Part shown: positions 35,306-50,336 of the stretch, piece by piece
Numbering within the stretch: the stretch's first letter is position 1
Layout of the letters: every line of letters starts with the position of its first letter
Assembly (NCBI GenBank): GCA_000310025.1
Contig: FN648414.1
Coordinates: 85,358-149,234, forward strand
Source: Ectocarpus siliculosus
Taxonomy: Eukaryota; Sar; Phaeophyceae; Ectocarpales; Ectocarpaceae
Direction: 5' to 3'
Length of the DNA: 63,877 bases
The notes under the pieces: model-generated
What the model saw: the letters and a program-made list of their open reading frames with translations, nothing else
Told to the model about the DNA's origin: nothing
Databases searched by the model: none
Position numbers and translations under genes: made by a program

Positions 35306-36921
35306 AATGGCGTGGGACAAGCAGGTGCGTTTTCGTCGGCCGACACCTACCGACCAACGATCGATTTCTGCCTCGTACGGTTCACATACGCTCCAAAAGT
35401 GTCGTTCACGCCCTTGATCATATCCAGCTGCCGAGATAGATGTCGGTGCGACAGTTATATCGGCTTGCCGTTGGCTTGGCATGCCCAAGCAGAACCCGAA
35501 AGCGCACGGCGTGGGTTCTTTTAGCTCAAACCCCAACCGAACGAGGCCACAAGCTAGTGTTGTCTGTTTCTACCTTCGTCAGGAAAGGTATCATTTTTTA
35601 TTTACCTTGCCGCTTGGAATTGAGGGTCCAGTTACCGTCCCGAAACAGGATGTGGTCGTGCTTTTCAACCCCTAAGAAACGGAAAGCTCCTCTCTTTGTT
35701 GTTGGTATTTAGGGCTCTTCAAGTTCAGAAGGCGCTCCAAGCACCGACGAGCCCGTGTGTCTCAAACGGGCTCATGACGTGCTGGTTCCAGCTGCAGCTT
35801 GTCGTAGCTCTGACAAACTGTGTACGGCGAATTGTCTGCGACAAGCGAACTGCTGTTTCCACGCTCCGCGCTATGTGGCCCCTACGCCGCTTTTTTCAAT
35901 AACACAACACCCTGGTATCGAATGTGTGGCATGCTGAGCACGACGCGAAGCAATCTTGATGTTGTTCAAAACCAGGTCCTGTTGAAAGCAGGACGTCTGT
36001 TTCGTAGAGCTTTTCGAACAGGATCGGATTCCAGCACCAGCATCCCTTCTTCACTCCCGTTTCATCACTCGGCGTGTGTTGCTTGCGCGTCCGCTCTTGC
36101 TGGTACAGCTCAAGGCGGAATCACTGGTTCTGACGGAACGCGGTGAACCCTGTTCGTCGGGACAACAGTACGTGTGCTCGACCCCCCTGATATCTATATT
36201 TACCGGCGAGCACCCCGAATGATACGGATATGAAAGAGATAGGATAACTCCCTGGTTGTTGGTTCGAGGAGGGGCCAGGTGCCTTGATTGCTTCCAACCG
36301 TCGGTGTGGTTGTTTCGTGCGTAGACTGAGTTGCCTCCTGTTGTGCGCCGGCGGCGTCATCCAGACGCCACTCCAAGCTTTTCTGAGTTGTTTTGTTAAT
36401 CTTCCAGAGGTGGACCGGGGCTTCTATGAGAGCTGCAATAGCAATGTAGGCTATCGCGCGACAGCACTTGCCTTTTTTGTTCACACCTGGAGCCCCTAAT
36501 TCTTGGTTTAGTTCGACGCTTTCCCGAAGCCGTTTGAGGCGGTGTGCCACGAAGGACAGAAATTGGATAGGCCGACGCGCTGGCGAAGAGAGTACTGCAT
36601 ACTCGGGATACGTGAACTCATGAAGGATGGAGGATCAATCATACCCGAACTGTGTAGAAAGAGCGATGCCATTGAGGTGTGTGTCGATGATGCATGGTGA
36701 AGTAGCGGTTGCAAGAACAAAGACTACGGGGCAGGCAGAAAAGGCCGCCTGCGTTGATGCGCGGCCCGCAGGGCGGGTTGTTGGATGCCGTCGAATGAAC
36801 TCCCCTTTGCTCTTGCGCATTTCGCATGGCCGAAAAGAGAGCGGTCATCCTTCCACTTGCACTTTTCAACAACTACACGGAGGTTGCACGCATGCTGTTG
36901 TGATGCGGTGGTCGTAGCATT
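35306..36921. other. Intergenic between converging genes, no gene seen
   Basis: No frame in this stretch shows a family motif or credible splice structure. Confidence 0.4.
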
Positions 36922-37400
36922 TGCGTAATGACATGTTCGTTTCTGCAAGACACGTAAACGAACTCACATATATCTATTTTTTTCCTGGTTTGCCAAGTGC
37001 TCAAGAACTCAGGAGACACCCGTATGGGTACAAGCAAACATGGCCACATTTACTTGACATTTACCGACAAAAGCAGCAATAACCCAGGGGACACGTTGAC
37101 TAGTATATGTAGGTGCCTTCGAGTACATGCACGTCGGCTCCTCCTGGCCTCTGGGCATCATTTGCGTAATGGCGTGTTCGTTTCTGCAAGACACGTAAAC
37201 GAACTCACATACGTCTATTTTTTTTTCCTGGTTTGCCAGGTGCTCAAGAACTCGAGAGACACCCGTATGGGTACAAGCAAACATGGCCACATTTCTTGAC
37301 ACTTACCGACAAAAGCAGCAATAACCCAGGGGACACGTTGACTAGTATATGTAGGTGCCTTCGAGTACATGCACGTCGGCTCCTCCTGGCCTCTGGGCAT
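36922..37400 (+). repeat. Tandem duplication, two copies of about 238 bp
   Basis: Copies 36922-37159 and 37160-37400 begin TTGCGTAATG(A/G)C(A/G)TGTTCG and end CCTCCTGGCCTCTGGGCAT, with only a few differences, so the duplication is recent. It lies just past the 3' end of the myosin-Tubby gene. Confidence 0.9.
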
Positions 37401-37482: not shown

Positions 37483-40476
37483 TCACACGCTCGTGTCCAG
37501 TGCAGCCAAGGCCATGCCAAACGCCTGCATGGGGGACAGGGGATACCTAAAGTCCAGGGCAAACTCGTCCACGCCAGACTTTCCGAAAGACAGTAACATG
37601 GAATCTTGTGCCCACCACTCGCCCCGTTGTTCGCGTCCATCTACGTCCCACCCTCTACGTCGCTGGGATATGTTCCCGGGGCGACGATCCTCCCAAACAA
37701 CGTTTCTTTGATTGTTGTCCCCACCGATATATCCTCGAGCGTGGTCGTCGGCTACCACCAGTTGGACGTTTTTGATGGAAAGCTTCGACGTGGAGTTGGG
37801 GAAGTCGAGGACGTACGCACCCACCTACGGCAATACGAATAATTTTCACGATAGTTAACACGCCGTCGGTTCGGTAAGTTCGTACAAGCTTGTTATTTGC
37901 ATCATTTAATGCACGGAGTCTGTGCTTCGTAAAGGTAAGAAAGTGTCAAAGTTGTCACGTACGCTTGGTTCCAATATGAATCAACCCATTGCGCCGCAAT
38001 GAGGATGTCACCCGTTCCTTGACGTGTGCGTACATCGGGAATGCCACAGGGCACAACAAGTCACAAGGCCGCACCACATCGTGATCGCTCTGTGATAAAT
38101 CTGGAACTGGTGATTCAAGCAGCCGTTAGTCTTTTGTTATCCAACCGAAATGCGAGGACCGTACGTTTTCAAACCCGAAAGGTTGTGGGTTACACTGCTG
38201 GTGCATGTATGTGACGGATGTTTCGTATCGGCCTCACACTGCGTGTGGACACGTTTCTCCATTTCTTGGTAACATCCTGAATCCTTGACTCACAGTTCGG
38301 TCGTAGCGCGGCTTACGATCGCGAAGATGCATGACGTCGTCCCAAGGGTGGTTGTATGTTTCAACGTCGCCCGCTTGGTACTGTTCCGCGGGACCAGGAA
38401 CAAAAGCCTTCGGAAGAAACGGGCAAGAGCATTTACGGGCTTTCGGTTGGAAACGAAACGATAAAATCTTAGTGGCAAGTAGCAGGAGGATTGAAAATCA
38501 TCGATGGGGTAGGGAAAAGAGAGGGGACGTGTTCTCCGCGGGGTACTTGGCGATCACGCCATGCCTCCAAGTCAGAAGCATCCGGTGGGAATTTGTTGCG
38601 TCGGAGAGGTGGACTTCAGTGCTGGAATCACGCGTGCCCGTGATGATGTTGTAGACTAAAGCCTCAACACGACAAGGTGTTGTGCCAGGACACCCGTACA
38701 GAGGTTGGTGCGTACGACAGATATCGTACATGACGCCAGTGCCACCGGACAGATATACTGGCGTAGAATTGAAGTACGACCAGTGCGGAAGGTCTTGCGT
38801 GGCCATTGGCAAGCGAACCAAACGACAAAGCACTCGAGCGGCAGATGGAATTTCAACATTGTGTTCCATTTATCATACCTCCATCGAACGCGGGCCATCC
38901 GCCACGTTTTGTGTAGCGGAGAAGACCACCCTTGCCAGTTCCTTTCTTGAGAATATTCCCCGCCGACGATCTTTCGATGACCTCCTGAAAAACACCAGAT
39001 GGAATCGGCGTTTTGCAACATACCGTCAGTCGAACCCGTTGCGCCCAAAACCTTCAACCTATAGCGCTCCGTTCGTACGTTCGTACAAATTCTTCGTCAC
39101 GTTCCGCTACTAGAAAAGTTAATGCGCAGCGCAGCTTGCCGAACATATGGGTGGCGACACTTCGTTTCGAATTCTAACAAACAACAATCGAATCAGTGCC
39201 ATGTCAAGCTCTCTACTGTGCTGAACGGGATGCCGTAGTGACGTATGCCGTGCGTAACATACGTGCGTGAGGATTGGTTGTCGACGACGAGGACGCGGTC
39301 AATTTGAGAGTCTCCAGGCTGGTTGACAACAACTACTTTCTTCATAGATACCCAAATCGATATCAGGGCTGAAATCAGACCATCGCTTGATGCGACAGAT
39401 TGTAGGTGTCTTGCCACAAATTGAAAACAAGGATTTTTCTTACACGAAGCACACCCACACGTCAATTTCATTTGACGGGTGACCTGTGCAAGCAAGCGCT
39501 GTTTTCGCGTGTTTACGCGCGTCGCAGTTCATACAGGAAGTTCACATACTAGTTAATGTTAAATGTTTTCACTCACTCACCTGGGCGAAACTCCGTCATC
39601 ATACAGAACGTAGGCGCGGCCGCTGCCATCGCGTGCACGCAATTTCCCCATGTACTCTCTCTGAGATGAGGGACAAGCCACCGGATGAGTAGCCGGATTT
39701 GAACACATCCGCGACAAGTCATGAAAACCCAAGGTTTTTAGAGTAAGAATGCTACAGTACCTCGAAAGGGTGGTTCAGAGCGTGGCAACCATCGGCAGAC
39801 ATACTTGTTTCGCCGTGTCTTGGCGAACATCGACATTTCATGAGAGTACATGCATGTTTTTGCGTCTCCCCCGCTGCTCTGCTCTCAACACGGCGTCACC
39901 GCGTGCGTGACGTAGAGACACTCTGAAACCACTCCCTAATAACTTTCCCCACACAGAACATATTCATATTACGCCATCACCCCTTGAGGGCCACAATCCG
40001 AACTTACTTGACTCATTCTCTTACCGTGTCTTTGGTCGTTTCCAAGTAGGGACTCGCGCTGATGTAGTAATTTGCTGTGCGGCTCAAAGGTTGTCGTGTC
40101 GCCGACATCATGAACACCATGCCACCCTGCGGACATCGGGGGGTTCGCATGGAGCAATACTGTGACCGACTTGATGATTTGGTTGGAATCCAGCGAACAA
40201 GAGGGCTGTCAAGGCCGTCACATCAACATCCTTCTGATTGGGGCTGGATTAAGTGCACCAACGATTGACGTCAAGGCGAAAGCTGGCGGTGGGCCTCAAT
40301 TTCTGAACACCTGAGTCAAAACGTTGTTCTTTGGTTGTTCATCTCGGGCACTGCTAACAACAATGTTCACCTGTATGTGATGCATGCCGTAGACCGATGA
40401 CGCCATGGGGTTCCACCCGCCACCTTCTTTCCGCGCGACGCGACACCGTATCGCCCCGTACTTCTTGGGCACCGGT
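37483..40476 (-). other. Tubby-domain module of the myosin gene
   Basis: Residues from six exons follow the Tubby order: PKKYGAIRCRVARKE; MVFMMSATRQPLSRTANYYI (then SASPYLE); SSAGNILKKGTGKGGLLRYT; EALVYNIITGTRDSSTEVHL; DDVMHLRDRKPRYDRT; VGAYVLDFPNSTSKLSIKNV (then QLV); and SFGKSGVDEFALDFRYPLSP (then MQAFGMALAAL) with stop at 37483. An extra Arg/Trp-rich insert (around WEDRRPGNISQRRRGW) separates the last two strands. No ATG precedes the module in its open frame. It could instead be a separate gene with an undetected 5' exon, but the upstream phase match argues for fusion. Confidence 0.82.
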
Positions 40477-43400
40477 CTGCAAGTCCACCGACGTCGGTAG
40501 CAGTCGCGGGGCAGCAAATCACCGTTTGAGAATCAAAATTTGAAAGGTATCGACGGCTGTACTGAAAAGCAGTGACGGACGGCAGGGCTCGGTCTCAAAA
40601 CTCTGGTCCGCGGTAGTTTTCCCGATGCGCAAACAGCCTGTGTTGTGTCTCGTCACCACAATCGTCAAATCCCTATCCCGAAGAACAGTGTCTCTCAAGC
40701 CTCGACATTCGGCTAGCGTTTTTATTTTCAGCCTAGATCTCGTAGTTACCGTATCACGAGCCGTCACTCACTCGGTGAGAAACGCCCGCATAGCGTAGTC
40801 CGCGAGACCGGCGAGTCGCGGGACAACCCTTTTGGCTTCGTGGGCACTAGCACTACCGCTGGAGGCCTCTGCCCCAGCCCGCTCAACCTCCGATCGATCC
40901 GGTATCGGCGAGCACATGGGGAAGGCACCTCGATGGCGGTGCGCGGTTCCCGCTGCGGTCGTCTCTTCAAGCCGTTCTTCGCTGATATCGTCATCTACTG
41001 GCCAGGCTTGAACTACTGGCGGCGGTGTGCAGCTCATCCTGATGAAGGTTGAAAACGTCATGGTTTGTGTTGAGGTCGACTTTTGGACTTTTGCACCTCA
41101 GACGGCCCGGGCGTGCAGTCGTTTTCCTGGTCTAGCCTCAACGTCTTTCAACGGTATGCGCTTGGCGGCTCGCACGAGCTTTTCGCCGTTTTAGTGCATG
41201 CTGCTAGCATGAATCACATGGTCGTGTAGTGCGTAGTAAGGCCTGAGTCTGTTCTTGTGGTTGAACTGTCGTTTCCCTCTGTCTGCGGCAAGCCACACAC
41301 ACTGAAGGCTACGAATAGCGACAGCTTCTTGCTGTTTATTTTTCAATTCTTGGAACTATTCGGTATGAAGCAATTTTTCGGGGTGCATCAAGGGTTAGAG
41401 CCGATCCCTAACCCGAGCTAACAGAGAAGTAAACATTGAAAAAGTCTTGCAAATATCGCCTTCGCAAGCGCTCTCCGTACCTGTTGGCATCATCCAGCAT
41501 ATTTCTCTCCGCCGCAGCTGTCCCTGCCTCTAGCCTGGCTTCCTTCTCCAGCGCTTTGCAATGCAATCGCCACGCTCTGTCGTGTCCCGCGGTGGCGGCC
41601 TGTGCTGCCTCTTGCGCCCTCTTTGCCTCTCGAACGACGTTCGCATGTGAGGACTCGAAGACCGCCGGCCTGCCAGACGGAACCCCGTATGTGGCAAAAT
41701 GTCTCCTTGTTGGGTGCTTGTATACTCAAACGACGCTTTTTTTTTTTTTTTTTTTTTGTTCTTCACTTTAAATCAGCGCTCACAGCACTAGTGCCGTTTA
41801 TTCTAACCCGTGGTCACACAGAAGAGCCTATCTCTACCCTCCCCTCCTGCGGTACTTCGCCTTCAATTTTTAATGCGAGAAGAGTTCAGCACTCTCTTCC
41901 CTCTGTGTACACACGAACTAGCGCTATCCACTTGGCCAGGAGCGGAGGCGAGAGAAAAACTCACTTTGCAAGAAAAGCTCGCCTACGCCGGGATTCGAAC
42001 CCCTGACCTGACCTCTAGAAGGTTACGAGGCTACCAACTAGACCACCGGGGCGACCGGCTTGCTTAGATGATACCGATACGAGCTTGAGGCCAAAGGCGC
42101 GCCTACGTCCGTTCGGGACGTGTTTGTAGTTGTGACATTTTTTCCCATGAATCGAAGAAGATATGCAAGGCCGCGTTGATACCGAGACACACTCGTGTAC
42201 TTCATCGCCTCATCATCACGGTAAAAATTGTGCCAAAAGGCAAAGCACATTGCCAGACTTGTTAGGTTTCTGTTGCATTCGTGTTGTCTACGATTGACAC
42301 CAACTGCTGCTACGGTGCAAAAGCTTTAAGTCTGTGATCAATACCTGCACGGGGTCTCTTGCAACACGGTGACGGATTGCAAGCGGTGTTCCTGCCACTG
42401 TTGTTGCTGTTCCCTCTCCTGGAGTGCCTGCTGTTCCACCTGGCTCGCTTTCTTGCCCGCTTCGTTCTCCCACACCTGCTTCTTCTCCTCCTCGAGTTGC
42501 TGTTGTCGTCGGTCCGCCACAGCTCTCTTCTCCGCTTCGACTGCAAGGTGCGCTTGCCATTCCTTTGTTAGCAAACGTGACACCAGACCATAAAACACTG
42601 AGAAACGATTATCCCGCTCTGATCACCGAGTGAGACCGCAGGATCGCGCACATGCCATTGTAACTCCGCTCCTATGATGTGTGGAACATCGGTGAACTCG
42701 GGCGTTCCCCGGGGTTGTCTCGCATCGTGCACAGCGTCACAGCACAGCCCCGTTCGCAACCACTCTGCTTGTCACTTGGCGGTTTGTTCGAACACAACGC
42801 CGTTGGTCTCTATCTATCTTCATGCCCCCGCCCGGCTGAAATCCGACATGGAAACCTCTAATGCGCGTGTTTCTCTTCCAATCACACTTGACGCCAACCG
42901 GTGGGAACGACGTGGGAACGTCGGAGGATTATGTACCACTCACGGCATTGGCGCGGACGCGACGGACGTGTTGTCGCCAGATCCGTTGTATCGCCTCGCA
43001 CCCCCGCCGTTCGACTGCTTCCCTTCGTCGCTCAAGGGATTCCCAGACACCTTTCCTGTTGGAGGCAATCCGCAAGCACTGCTGTTAACCTCATCACACG
43101 CATGTAACGACAAGATAAAGCTTTCGTCGTACATATGGAGTTAGAGAAAAGCACCGCACGCTAACACCGCACTTTTTCAGTTTGGGAACGCGCGCAAACA
43201 CACCTGAAGAATATGGTGCCGTGACCCAGCTTGCAGCAATTACCCTCGTTGTTTAAGACCCTGCGTTGAGCGTTGAGGGCGTGGCAAGAACATGGGGCGA
43301 AACAAGAAAGCATACTTCAAGGGGAGTATAACTCGACGAAGGTGCAGTTAAGTGCTTCACGTTCAAGAAAGCCGAAACTAGTCAGGAATAACGTACTTCA

Positions 43401-46400
43401 AACGTCAACCAACGAGGCATGCCATCGGCTCTCAGAGGTGGAGAATAGGTTTGTTGCGGTTGTGAGAAGCGTACACGGTACCTCTGTATCGCCCCCGGGA
43501 CGACCCTGAAGTCGTTGAAGAACGCTTCTTTGTCCACCCTTCGGCCGGATGGCAACGAGAGGATACCTCTTTCTGCTGCTGCCGCTACTCCCGCCGAGGA
43601 CAGCTGTCGAAGGAGGTTTCGGCCGTCGAGGAAGCTCGGAGAAAGCTGATCGTTTGGCTTGATGCAGACAATATGACGAACCTGTCGAAGCACCGGGAAA
43701 AGAAGTGATTCCTCTACAAATGTTTCCTAACAAAATACGGCTAAGAAGTGCAGAAAGAAGAAACACAGTGGAGAGCGCAGAGAAAAAGAAAACTCACACA
43801 AAATCATGGTCTATCTCGAGGAAACCACTGTAGACAGCTGGTTCGTTCTCGTTTGACGTTTGCCGTTGACTTGATGCTGAAGAACTCACGGGACTTTAGA
43901 ACAGTTGGCGGTGCAACTTTGACACACGCACCACGGTGGTGATTCCGTCTACCTCTCGCCTCACTCCAAAGGGAGCAGGTGAGACGCACTGCCGCGCTGA
44001 AACAACCGTCTATGGACTCGTCGAGAAAAACCTAGCCCCTAATTCCCATACGGGCGACGGTGGGGACCCGAGCATACCTTGGTGTCCTCGATTTCGCGCA
44101 ATAATTCCGTGAGCTGGCGTCGGTGCTGCGACAGGACGGACTCGTTGAGCCTACGCTGGTGCAAGTTTTGCCTCCGGTGGTCGGCGGCGCCGTCCACTGT
44201 GCTGGCCCGGCGCCCGTCCCTGTACATGAGGTGTGTACCATACGTGGCGGTGAGGGTAGGGGACGTAACATGTGCTGTATCTTGTTCGTGTGTTTATTAT
44301 CTCTCTCCCGTGTTGTGTTCAGAGTTGGTTTCCCGCTGGGACGGTGAAGCCAGTCAAGGTGTTCAGAATAACTGGTTCTTTCTCACTGGCCTGGTGGTAT
44401 CGGCACACAGCCCATTGCTCTATACCGCAGAAATTCAACGAGACACGGTTGCCCGGGACATGCCATACGTTACATCTTCTTGCACTCAAAAGGTGGGATG
44501 GCGTTGAACAATCCATAGCAGTATTGAAACACCAAACCTTCACTATTTCTACCGACCTGTAGCGGCTACTCCTCGACCCCTTGCCAACCAAGTCGTTGGT
44601 GCACACATCGTCAAGAAGATCAAGCAAACCCTGCCCAACCCCGCCCTTGTTTTTCTCCAAGAGGTCGGCCGCGGTGTATCGCACCGGTCCTGCAATCACG
44701 TGCGGAGAAAAGCGACACCACGACGTAATCGTTTGCTGAGGAACGTTAGGGATGAAGAAGAAACTCTCGCAGCAGAAACAGGCGGATGAGTTGGGTACGT
44801 TTGTAATTTGCATTACGTCAACACCAGGAGCGTCTTGGGACGCTGGTGGGCTGGAGTAGAGAGCTATACTGGTTGTTGATGTTGGGGAGGCTGAAAGTGA
44901 TTTTGTTCCGAGAACAGAGCTAGGAGAACGAGGCAACTTCGATTCACCAATATCTTGGAGAGGTCAGTCCGCGTCAATTTGTCAATGATCTGAAAGCTAT
45001 GGCCATCAATGGCTTTTCTTTGGAAGCATCACAGACAACAGCTTGCGTGTTCGTTGTTGCGGAACATGAACACACCTGGCGCCGCTCTCATGCTCAAATT
45101 CAGGGCGTTTGACGCAATTACCTACAGGGCTTTCCATGTGACAGCACGTCGCGCACATCCACTCAGCCCAACCGCAAAATATCTGAACATGAATGGGATA
45201 GCAATTGCTACAGTCACGTGAACATCTGTCATTACCAATGGAAGTCAAAGTGAGACACCCACTCTTTCACTTACTCCCCTACGCGGTAATAAACAGACCG
45301 CACCGAAGGCAGCGTCACTTAGTCACTTACGGGAGCTCGATGTGCACACATTAATACGCACCCTAGTCATTAGTCTTCCTCGGCCGTTTACGAAATACTC
45401 AGCTGCGAAACGACCGTGGATGAACAATAAACAAGAAGTCCTACGTACCATACACGAACGAGGACTTGAATAAAGAAAAACCGCAATCCAGCCTTTGGTT
45501 TCTTTACCTCCAAAGTGCTTGATGTGAAAACAGGAGTTTGCTAGCCTGTTCCCAGACTTGTTCGGGTCGATGCACGCCGGCCACGCGCTGTTTCTGCCCC
45601 CGGTGACCGCACCACCACGACAGCGGCAGTCTTCGTCTCCGTCTCCCACGTAGACCAAGCGAGAGCAACCCCAACAGGCGCCACCATCGCCCCGTGAATC
45701 TTGCCTTGTCTCTTCTTCCGTAGCTGCGAGAAGAAGGAGCTTGTTCACGAAAGACTGGCCGTTTCCTTCCGGGCAGAGGCACTCGTCGTCGGCGAGACGA
45801 ATCAAGCCCAGTGGACCTGTCCAAAGGAGTGCCCAGGGAAACTAACTTGGGGTCAGTAGCATAGGCAGGCTGTAGGCCACGCAAAGTCGCGCGGGATGGA
45901 CTGAAACAATCAGTAGAACTCAAAAAAGTACGTGATGTGAGTTGCGCACAAGAACGTTCCACCACGCAAGCACATATCGAACCGCATCGTGAGTTTCAGT
46001 GCAAGATCACACAGCACAGTCGGGAAGGGGTGAGGGCAATCCCGTCCGGTTGGTCGTAGGTGCAGTTTACCAGGATTTCCTTTCGATTCGGTAGCGTTAG
46101 CGTTACGGGATTTGTCCGAAAGTGGTCGCCTGTGGCTGTTGAAACTAAGGCTGCCTTCTCTGTCCGTTCTCGCCGAGACTGCACCTTTCCTGAAAGTCCT
46201 TTATATGTAAACCCCTCGCAAAAAATCTGCACATTTGGTCATTGGGCATTAGTTTTGTGTACAACAAAAGAAGTTCAATATTTCTCATCACAGCCCATGC
46301 TACACCTCTCCCTCTCTCGCTCACCCTCAAACATAGCCAACAGCCGTCGATTGCTCTCCACCTCAGCTACCGCCGACGCTTGGGCCGTTCTCCCGGTGGC

Positions 46401-49400
46401 ACCGCCCTTGGCGTTCCCGTAGCACACCTCGTCCTGAAGGAACCTTCCGTGAATTTTCTCGACAGCATAGTTCTTGCAGAGTTGCTCGAATCCGCTGGGG
46501 TCGAGGTTTTCCAACCTAAACATGTGCACGCCAAGTGAAGCGGGCGGGCGCACCGAAGGGGTGTCAGAGTTTGCCAATTACTTCTTTGACCGACCTAAAC
46601 GGGAGCGGCTGGAGTATGGTCTGGTCCACCCCTGTGTACCATGCGGCAGCGCAACGATGAGAGTTGTAGACGCCCCCCTCCCACGCCACCGTACTATGTT
46701 GCACCGACTCAGGGGTGGAGGGGAAACAACAGCAGCATCTTGCTGCCTTGTTGCCGTTCCATGCGATTTGGAATAAAGTAGACGTGTTCCTGTGCCGTGA
46801 GAATCGATTTTGCAGTCACACAGCACGAAGCGAAAGTGAGCCTCGTAATCCTGGCATCCCCGCCCACCCTCACCCTCCCTCTCTCTCACGAACGTACCCG
46901 AACATGTCCAAGAGCCCTATGGAGCTGACGCCTGCCTGTTTTTCATCGGATGGGAGGCCCGTGCAAGCGTTCATTGTTTTTACCAGCCATTTGAACAGCC
47001 TCAAGTATACCTGGGCATAGAACGCGAAAGCAGGCGGCAACGAAGCCGAGCAGTTTCAAGACGCGCTTGCCGAGCAGTAGTGACGATGTCGGCGCCAGCG
47101 CCGCCACACCAAGGGGAAAAAATGCATCCCGTGCACATGTCCATTTGACACTGTCCCTCGCTGCCGTGGGATACGACCTCGCCGCAAGACCTCAGCGCAG
47201 CGCCTCTTCTAGGCGAAGGTTTTATCTCTGCTCTAAATATGTCAACGGCACCTGGTTTTTCTTCCTGACTGAGTGCACGCGCACATGGACATACCTCTTG
47301 GACAAGGTTGTCCCTCGCCCTCAAGGCCTGGGCTTTGTCCAATGGCACGGTCAGCGTGTCCACGACCCCCCTCGTCCTCCTCGACCCTCCCCTCGACACA
47401 AACGCTGCGCCTCCCTCCCCCCCGGCGGCGAGACTCCGCGTGAGCAGTGCATTGCGCAGATGGTGCTTTTTGCAGCCAAGCATGTCGCTCGCTGCCTCCA
47501 GAGGCGCCTCATCACGTATCTAAACATATCGCAAGAAACCCCACGACAACAACACCGTGGAAAGATATTATATGGTCTTCCCCATCATGGTTTCTCTTTG
47601 AAAGTATGTGCTCTATTGTTTTGGCCAATTACACTGGAAAATGTGCCCGAAACTGTCATTTGTGCTCAATTTTTGGACAATAATGCTCAATTCGGTTCAA
47701 GCATGCTCGAAGCATGCCTTAGGTTTTAGTACTTTTATGCTTTGTGGCGCCCGAGTATAGTGGGGAAGGCCTTAAAATGGCCGTGACCAATGTCAATCCT
47801 TATCGCGGAACCTGATTTGTCAACCGGAAGACATTTGGTGTCGATGAGCCCGCCACCCTAATCATTTTTACCCCACCCCGGCCACTATAAACCGTCTGCT
47901 CAAGAGGGCGCGCTTCAACAGCAGCAACTAAAATGAGGAGTAGTCATCCACCTACAAAAAAAACGTGTAGGGAAGCCGCAACTTCCAGCAGACCGGGGGC
48001 TACTGAAAGTAAGTATGAGACAAAACGGCTCTCTCTTTTTTACCCCTTATGGGCTCACCTCTATCACTCCGAAGTCGCGATCAATTAATTCTTTAACGTC
48101 CGCAAACTCGATCTCCAAGATGCGCGCGGTGTATTGTAGAGGAACAATAATGAACAGCAACGTACGAGGAGGAACGGGATAGCGCTTTGGCGTCAGATGC
48201 CGCGGCATGAGAAGCTGCCCGGTGCGGAATACTCTTGGCACAAAGACAAGGGCAACAGAGAGATCTGCGCCCCCAAAATGGTTGACGCGACTCTCGAAGT
48301 GCTGTATATTCACAAGAGCACTGCCGTGCTTCTGAAGGTGCGCACAAGCGCTGGAAGACAAGACAAATTGTATGCGAACTGGAGTATTTGCCGCGTCGGG
48401 TCACTACACCCTTGGACTGAACGTAGTTGGTCTGTCCTGCCAAAAACATATTCCACAACGCATACAAGTACCCTTTTAAAACCCGCCCGTCTTCAAGTCT
48501 ACCTTTAGCGCCACCAACCTACCTGGCCAAGGTGTAGCACGGCCGATAGGACCCGCATTGTGCTTTCCCGATCTTTTGCTGATACCCCAATTGTTGCCAT
48601 CGAATCCAGAGTCTTGTGCAGCCCCCCGGCCCCGCTTGGGCCGCTGGACCCGCATGTTGGCACAGAAACGCTTGGGGCCCCTGCGCACCCCTCTGTGTTG
48701 CGAATACTTCGAATTGACCCGCTCGACCATGCCGAACCGGCACCAGCAGCATCGTTAGCGTTTTTTTCTCCACCTTGACTTGACGAGGGCTCGAAGGCGG
48801 TTACAGCGAAGTCTGCCGCTGTTTTGTCACCAAGACGGAGGCGCATTTTGACGGTTTCGTCTGCACCTAGCATCTGTGGATGAACGCAACATAGCATGGA
48901 GTTCGGACAAGCATGAGGAGTAAACTGCTTCGCTTGGGTGTATGTGGGTGAGTGCCGGAATATTGTCGATTCAAACGTACCCTTGGCATTTGTCATTGCG
49001 CTTATCACGTGGTTTACAATATGTCAACACGTACTGCACAGCTCTGCGCCTCCAGCGGACACAAAAGACAATACACCACGAGATAGAGGTACAACAACAC
49101 AACAAGGAGGGCTATTCGCACTTCGGGCCTCGTTCAGGCGATGCGACTTCAGCGTAAGGCCCTGTGCTAGACGAGGTAAGGATGTTACACCGTCAAACCT
49201 GGTAGAAGGCGTTGAAAGTCCTTTCTCCGCGGCCCCGGCGGGTGTTGCAAAGCCTTGGCGTCTCCAGAAGGAGTGTGCTATCCTGTATTCCGGCCGCTTG
49301 AAACGCATGCTTGGAGTAGAAGACTTTCGTGTGCGCCATGAAGCGACTGCTGCTCTCGTTCAAAGGCTGCGAACGAGACAGGTTGCCGAGCAGACCAAAC

Positions 49401-50336
49401 ATATGATGGATCACCGTATCGCAAGCACAGCAACCACAACAGGTCGTGTACTCTACCGAAAGAACGCGGGATGTGCGTCACGAGGGGGCAATACATGCCT
49501 GTCAAATCCCACCGTATCTGCAACGCCGCCACCAGCTACGATTCCGTTTCTCCACAGGGCAATCAGAAAGACTCTTTCAAGAGGAAACGCAGACAAAAAC
49601 CATGCTCCTTCGTCCCCACTCACCGTTCCAGCATTGCCGAATGTCTCTAAAATGACCCTTCGACTTGCCACCAGCTTTCTCAAACGCCCCGTCTTGTTTC
49701 CACCGTCATCCTCGACGGTAGTCATACCGCCAGAAACCCCCCCCCGCTCATTCTGAGCCGTCGTCCCGTAGACTCGTCTCGACATTTCTGCGGCTTCCAC
49801 CAGGTGCTCCAAGAGAACGGAGGTAGTGAAAGATTTTCCAGAGCCGGATTCCCCGGCCAATAGGATGGTCTGGCGGCCAAGGCCCTCGGATAGCCGCCAA
49901 TACGCGGAGGCACTCGTCGCGTACACGTGCACCGGTAGGTCGGTTCTGTTGTACTTCATGTACCTGAACTGTAAGTGTATGCCATATTGAACGCGTGAAA
50001 CCACAGAAAACAGTCCCATGCACGGACTAAGTGGTACGGGATGAACGAGGACGAAAAGATTAACACAGCAGTCAGCATTGTAGTCTACGGCAAGTGTAGT
50101 CTATATACACGTACAACCAGTACCTGCATGTCCCTGTCGTAAAGTTCGTCGAGATTCCTGCAGGGATTGACCGCAATCGTCACGTTCCCAGCCCCAATGT
50201 ACGGCTTGCCGGCTAGAAACCGCGCGCGGCAATTCTGGAGAACCAGTTCTTCGTCCCAGACTCCACTCTGTAGCTCGATGAGGTCCTCTACCTCCTCTGG
50301 ACATTGCGAGTAGTGAGGCTCCCGACATGGCACCAT
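37483..50336 (-). CDS. Divergent myosin heavy chain with IQ/coiled-coil neck and C-terminal Tubby domain
   Basis: Myosins are ATP-driven actin motors; Tubby domains bind phosphoinositides and membrane cargo. Exons: 50336-50124, 49968-49624, 49366-49199, 48873-48523, 48112-48059, 47507-47295, 47010-46898, 46515-46325, 46135-46071, 45841-45508, 44689-44557, 44219-44078, 43681-43482, 43055-42944, 42562-42345, 41705-41481, 41038-40772, 40476-40371, 40126-40025, 38984-38879, 38757-38558, 38467-38294 and 37824-37483. All phases agree and join to about 1,457 aa. Motor landmarks: RARFLAGKPYIGAGNVTIAV, P-loop GESGSGKS, LETFGNAGT, switch I NESSSRF, LHLGQIEFADV, switch II LLDMFGLE, FEQLCKNYAVEKIHGRF, FHIKHFGGPVRYTAADLLEK and HIVCIKPND. 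The neck has one IQ (AIQRIWRQHVRRVRA) and a Gln/Glu coiled coil. The tail is Tubby-like from IRCRVARKE to DEFALDFRYPLSPMQAF. The ATG at 50336 follows an in-frame stop. Least certain are exons 9, 10 (5' end) and 21; exon 21 may start at 38793. Confidence 0.85.
41739..42054 (-). mobile_element. tRNA-derived SINE in a myosin intron
   Basis: On the minus strand: a tRNA-like head GCCCCGGTGGTCTAGTTGGT with box A (TGGTCTAGTTGG), a perfect box B (GGTTCGAATCC) about 40 nt on, then an unrelated body and a 19-nt poly(A) tail. Acceptor and D stems are only partly paired, so this is not a working tRNA. The body and tail recur at 21218-21306. It lies within the intron 41706-42344 and does not disturb splicing signals. 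Confidence 0.7.

Follow-up and report, generated by a model that had tools for sequence, protein, structure and literature searches.

Analysis of the window, the whole 63,877-nucleotide stretch of Ectocarpus siliculosus DNA examined here (C62:85358-149234 of the 189 Mb assembly G000), revealed a minus-strand gene that very probably (about 90%) encodes one unconventional myosin, in which an actin motor is joined to a C-terminal Tubby (Tub) tail. The strongest support for this fusion was the presence of three loci in the same genome at which a myosin motor and a Tub domain occur together. The predicted protein would consist, in order, of the motor, a short IQ-like neck, a short charged stretch that is probably a coiled coil, a low-complexity linker and the Tub domain. 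In such a protein, the Tub domain would dock on PI(4,5)P2-bearing membrane via a basic pocket formed by the equivalents of tubby K330 and R332 while the motor engages actin, and the plasma membrane or a membrane cargo could be moved or held along actin. The genomic sequence supports an architecture in which an actin motor is directly and covalently joined to a Tubby domain of the phosphoinositide-binding type. This arrangement is kept at three diverged loci and suggests a concrete route by which PI(4,5)P2 could direct actin-based transport or anchoring in this non-model eukaryote.

Gene model and domain content

The gene extends from position 50336 to position 37483 and comprises 23 exons that encode 1,378 amino acids (4,137 nt including the stop codon). 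The model was assembled manually on the basis of open frames and of splice sites selected with the reading frame in view, and was checked by script. The exons are listed below in window coordinates.

Exon 1, 50124..50336 (-), ATG start and N-terminal part of the motor
Exon 2, 49624..49968 (-), P-loop GESGSGKS, from the alignment
Exon 3, 49199..49366 (-), switch I region NESSSRFMA, altered
Exon 4, 48523..48873 (-), motor
Exon 5, 48059..48112 (-), motor, 54 nt; LHLGQ runs on into IEFAD in the alignment
Exon 6, 47295..47519 (-), motor
Exon 7, 46898..47010 (-), motor; start of switch II (LLDMFG)
Exon 8, 46325..46515 (-), motor (LENLDPSGFEQLCKNYAVEK)
Exon 9, 45508..45816 (-), motor
Exon 10, 44557..44689 (-), motor (PVRYTAADLLEKNK)
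Exon 11, 44078..44219 (-), motor
Exon 12, 43482..43681 (-), motor (VRHIVCIKPN)
Exon 13, 43204..43260 (-), end of the motor (CKLGHGTIFFR)
Exon 14, 42944..43055 (-), neck, IQ-like motif by eye
Exon 15, 42345..42562 (-), charged, coiled-coil-like by eye; the acceptor AACAAAG is a weak choice
Exon 16, 41481..41669 (-), charged, coiled-coil-like by eye
Exon 17, 40772..41038 (-), 267-nt linker; its end, MRAFLTE, is the onset of Tub homology
Exon 18, 40371..40476 (-), Tub, PVPKKYGAIRCRV
Exon 19, 40025..40126 (-), Tub
Exon 20, 39581..39660 (-), Tub; GKLR at the position of tubby K330/R332
Exon 21, 38879..38984 (-), Tub
Exon 22, 38294..38407 (-), Tub
Exon 23, 37483..37824 (-), Tub C-terminus and stop codon

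All 22 introns were of the GT-AG type, and the joined frame was free of stop codons until its end. An earlier note on this DNA had described every junction downstream of the Tub start as phase-compatible; the junctions are indeed compatible, but the agreement was partly built in, because the reading frame guided the manual choice of splice sites. Codon usage favored the model frame in seven of the eight exons tried, exon 14 being the failure; since only eight of the 23 exons were tried and one failed, this test is a weak one.

The same note had proposed looking for Pfam Myosin_head and Tub in the joined protein, and both were found. Myosin_head matched with an E-value of 6.5e-88 (296.1 bits against a cut-off of 33.3) in two stretches, the best of which covered residues 16-581, and Tub matched residues 1094-1376 with an E-value of 5.9e-45 (154.4 bits against a cut-off of 27). 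The Tub domain was complete, with positions 1-256 of the 256-position profile covered. Among sequences of solved structures, 150 distinct ones matched the motor part at E ≤0.001, of which the 60 listed were all named myosins, and six tubby/TULP sequences matched the tail part. Pfam IQ was not found in the window protein, in the tail of the related locus on C14 or in one neck piece from the related locus on C15 (both loci are described below).

Upon alignment of the spliced motor with solved myosins, we found that conserved blocks ran across introns: LHLGQIEFAD spanned exons 4-5, LLDMFGLENLDPSGFEQLC exons 7-8, MFEGPLGLIRLADDEC exons 8-9, FHIKHFGGPVRY exons 9-10 and EDTKVRHIVCIKPN exons 11-12. 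Chance joins are therefore unlikely, and the motor and Tub blocks that run over the joins, together with the Pfam scores, support the model independently of the hand-picked sites. An origin of the model from chance open frames was likewise rejected as unlikely in view of two strong domain matches over 23 joined exons.

Other Tub and myosin loci in the genome

Twelve Tub matches in the genome fell into seven loci, and at least 96 myosin matches fell into at least 24 loci by our own grouping (65 of 144 candidates scored). At three of the seven Tub loci, namely the window, C14 at ~1651 kb and C15 at ~4769 kb, a myosin motor was present upstream on the same strand. Upstream of the remaining loci (one each on C8 and C21 and two on C33), no motor was detected at E ≤0.01 in the 14-18 kb that were read; the myosin loci listed included none on C21 or C33, and any on C8 lay more than 500 kb away from its Tub locus. 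If 24 myosin loci and a reach of 10 kb are assumed, random placement would put a motor at three or more of the seven Tub loci with a probability of 8.9e-9, a value that by itself does not separate a fusion from a gene pair copied together.

The model of the C14 locus contained a motor-end exon, an IQ-like/acidic exon and five Tub exons, with six stop-free junctions (the last exon lies outside the model), and its joined tail matched Tub with an E-value of 4.5e-34. One C14 exon crossed the boundary between the two regions and reads ...TKATMRAFLNQPVEPQTG, with the MRAFL..PV sequence in common with the window. In particular, the C14 Tub-start exon SAPRTEPFTKATMRAFLNQPVEPQTGV matched window LAGLADYAMRAFLTE, followed across the join by PVPKKYGA, with 31.7% identity and an E-value of 6.8e-4.

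Motor trees were built from tblastn fragments aligned on the solved myosin 7kch and the spliced motor of the window, and included 19 of the 24 loci and the PDB sequence; C7 at ~1,844 kb (95 columns, too short), C3 at ~650 kb, C8 at ~3,834 kb, C191 and C70 lay outside the tree. In this rough in-genome tree, the Tub-associated motors of the window, C14 and C15, together with a fourth motor, C27a, were split from all others (UFBoot 99, FastTree 0.995). In each of the two trees, no branch was longer than that of the window (1.32 and 1.38). Within the group C27a paired with C15 (89; FastTree 0.867), but the branching there is not firm, given the fragmentary alignment and the great length of the window branch. 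No Tub domain was detected in the readable letters of 20 kb at C27a (L059; C27, 2481000-2490999), where a large share of the tail side is withheld; its tail has either been lost, is different, or includes a Tub domain hidden in unread letters.

The boundary between the motor and Tub regions

The coordinates and the 295-nt intron that the earlier note had given for the boundary proved exact: exon 17 (41038-40772) ends at the donor GTGAGTGA, and exon 18 (40476-40371) follows the acceptor ...GGACTTGCAG in phase 2. Its remark that the Tub frame lacks an ATG before the conserved start was also correct for exon 18, whose frame contains no Met ahead of PVPKKYG. The note's description of exon 17 as a coiled-coil exon was not confirmed, as this exon encodes a Pro/Ser/Ala-rich linker ending in ADYAMRAFLTE, and the coiled-coil-like sequence lies in exons 15 and 16. 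Homology to TULP1 started at MRAFLTE in exon 17 and ran on through exon 18, which supports the joining of these two exons. Additionally, exon 17 ends within codon 1096, and the Pfam Tub match starts at residue 1094, two residues before this end. In-frame ATGs are also present in exon 17, from 41037 onward, and intron 16 contains a further one upstream at 41061. A Tub-only transcript starting in the linker is therefore possible, and the join of exons 16 and 17 decides the question of fusion more than that of exons 17 and 18.

Owing to these ATGs, a Tub gene starting in this region is a real rival to the fusion. According to this alternative, the window contains two adjacent genes on the same strand. 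The first, a myosin, would end near exon 16 or 17, the second, encoding Tub, would start at 41061, at 41037 or at the Met of MRAFL, and the C14 and C15 loci would have arisen when both genes were copied together as a pair. We consider this alternative very unlikely. Apart from the in-frame ATGs, it is favored by the Met ahead of RAFL, which is also found in C14, and by the donors of exon 17 and of the C14 exon preceding Tub, which run into an immediate TGA if left unspliced, as any phase-2 GTGA donor does. The polyadenylation-type hexamer AATAAA occurs in introns 16 and 17, as it does once each in introns 10 and 15 (four of the 22 introns in total, counts that are uninformative), and is absent from the 1 kb after the stop codon. 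The codon usage of exon 17 gave its top score in the predicted frame, the sole stop-free frame of the three, but fits two genes equally well; it cannot distinguish between the fusion and a separate Tub gene with its start codon at 41061 or 41037, because the frame is identical.

Several observations argue against two genes. The neck/linker exon and the Tub-start exon of C14 are separated by an intron of only 150 nt, and order and strand are conserved at all three loci although the matching pieces are merely 25-45% identical. The similarity of C14 to the window begins at query residue 1076, 14 residues ahead of the Met at 1090; this part is weak, the E-value of 6.8e-4 belonging to the whole piece when 20 loci were searched. 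Tub tails have moreover been reported on class XXI myosins, as discussed below. A Tub gene starting within intron 17 was also considered and is unlikely, since the only ATG there (40708) opens a frame of 11 codons and Tub homology has already begun in exon 17. The fused architecture put forward in the earlier note is thus upheld by the two Pfam domains, by two further loci at which a motor and Tub are arranged in the same order on one strand, and by the boundary-crossing exon of C14.

Nucleotide-binding motifs of the motor

We compared the nucleotide-binding motifs of the window motor with those of its homologs. The P-loop (GESGSGKS, compared with GESGAGKT) and switch II (DMFGLE) were near canonical. 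Switch I was altered, reading NESSSRFMA in the window against NNNSSRFGK in 7kch, NDNSSRFGK in C15 and NNNSSRYGV in C14. Given this alteration, the window motor may have a weak ATPase with altered ATP turnover. A more extreme reading, which is compatible with the fused architecture, is that the gene is fused and the window copy is a non-motile or pseudogene-like remnant. The switch I and P-loop substitutions and the longest branch in both trees point in this direction. We nevertheless regard such degradation as unlikely, as the 23 joined exons are free of stop codons before their end, the P-loop frame, the SSRF of switch I and the D..G.E of switch II are retained, and the Tub domain is full-length. 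A separate substitution was observed in the Tub myosin of C14 (L016), the P-loop of which reads GVSGAGKT, with V in place of the usual E.

Predicted phosphoinositide-binding residues of the Tub domain

Two papers report that Tubby domains bind PI(4,5)P2 and that changes at K330 and R332 lower membrane binding (PMC10445746; PMC6366083). We mapped the tubby residue numbers onto the alignment letters by our own count. The K330/R332 pair was kept in the window protein, in which GKLR aligned with GKLR of 1s31 and 2fim, and by the same count a tyrosine was retained at the position of tubby Y343. The corresponding sequence is GKVK in C14 and apparently GRLK in C15 (read by eye from an open frame), so the basic pair is kept at all three loci. 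In tubby, residues 301-305 form a second PI(4,5)P2 site, as described in one of these papers (PMC10445746); this site is not defining for the fold. Its basic cluster was largely lost in the window protein, where TRQPL aligned with tubby RKRKK by our count. The conserved K330/R332 positions are compatible with a tether to PI(4,5)P2 membrane. Because switch I is altered while the lipid pocket is retained, the window copy could conceivably have changed from a transporter into a slow or static PI(4,5)P2-to-actin tether that pins membrane domains to actin, a conversion that we regard as unlikely.

Comparison with known myosins and Tubby proteins

The window protein shares a full-length Tub domain and the conserved GKLR with Tubby/TULP proteins of known structure (PDB 1i7e, 1c8z, 2fim, 1s31, 3c5n and 8fh3). 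In contrast to these, its N-terminal partner is a myosin motor, it is without most of the basic 301-305 cluster, and it has an insert of ~45 residues ahead of the last strands. Myosin I also combines a motor with a tail of the phosphoinositide-binding kind, although the fold of that tail differs from that of the window protein.

The earlier note had left open whether a motor-Tub architecture had been reported before. This question is answered by Sebe-Pedros et al. 2014 (PMC3942036), who list IQ, WW, PX and Tub (PF01167) tails for myosin XXI homologs of heterokonts and haptophytes. The architecture is therefore not new, and the window gene is a new example of it. The window protein, with its predicted combination of Myosin_head and Tub (PF01167), belongs by its architecture with these Tub-tailed class XXI myosins, and differs from the class as described there in its altered switch I. 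The class number alone is ambiguous, since XXI denotes an arthropod class in Odronitz and Kollmar 2007, the main text of which contains neither 'tub domain' nor 'tubby'; the word 'tubby' is also absent from Kollmar and Muhlhausen 2017. A literature search for myosin with Tubby in stramenopiles or algae returned no paper. Class XXX, as described in PMC3942036, consists of stramenopile myosins with PH or PX tails, which resemble the window protein in joining a motor to a phosphoinositide-binding kind of tail but differ from it in the tail fold.

Repeats within and next to the gene

Intron 15 contains a SINE-like insertion (window 41735-42070, minus strand), in which letters of tRNA-type A and B boxes, recognized by eye, are followed by a run of A; ARAGORN called no tRNA in the window. 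The element had at least 41 matches in the genome, the window copy among them (40 of 1685 first-look candidates scored). Among the matches listed, 39 others shared 97-99% identity with it across 310 or more of the 336 bases, which suggests a recent spread, and one was 68% identical. Additionally, a unit of ~242 bases occurred twice in direct order just downstream of the stop codon (window 36918-37400), and the two copies aligned in three pieces with 94-98% identity.
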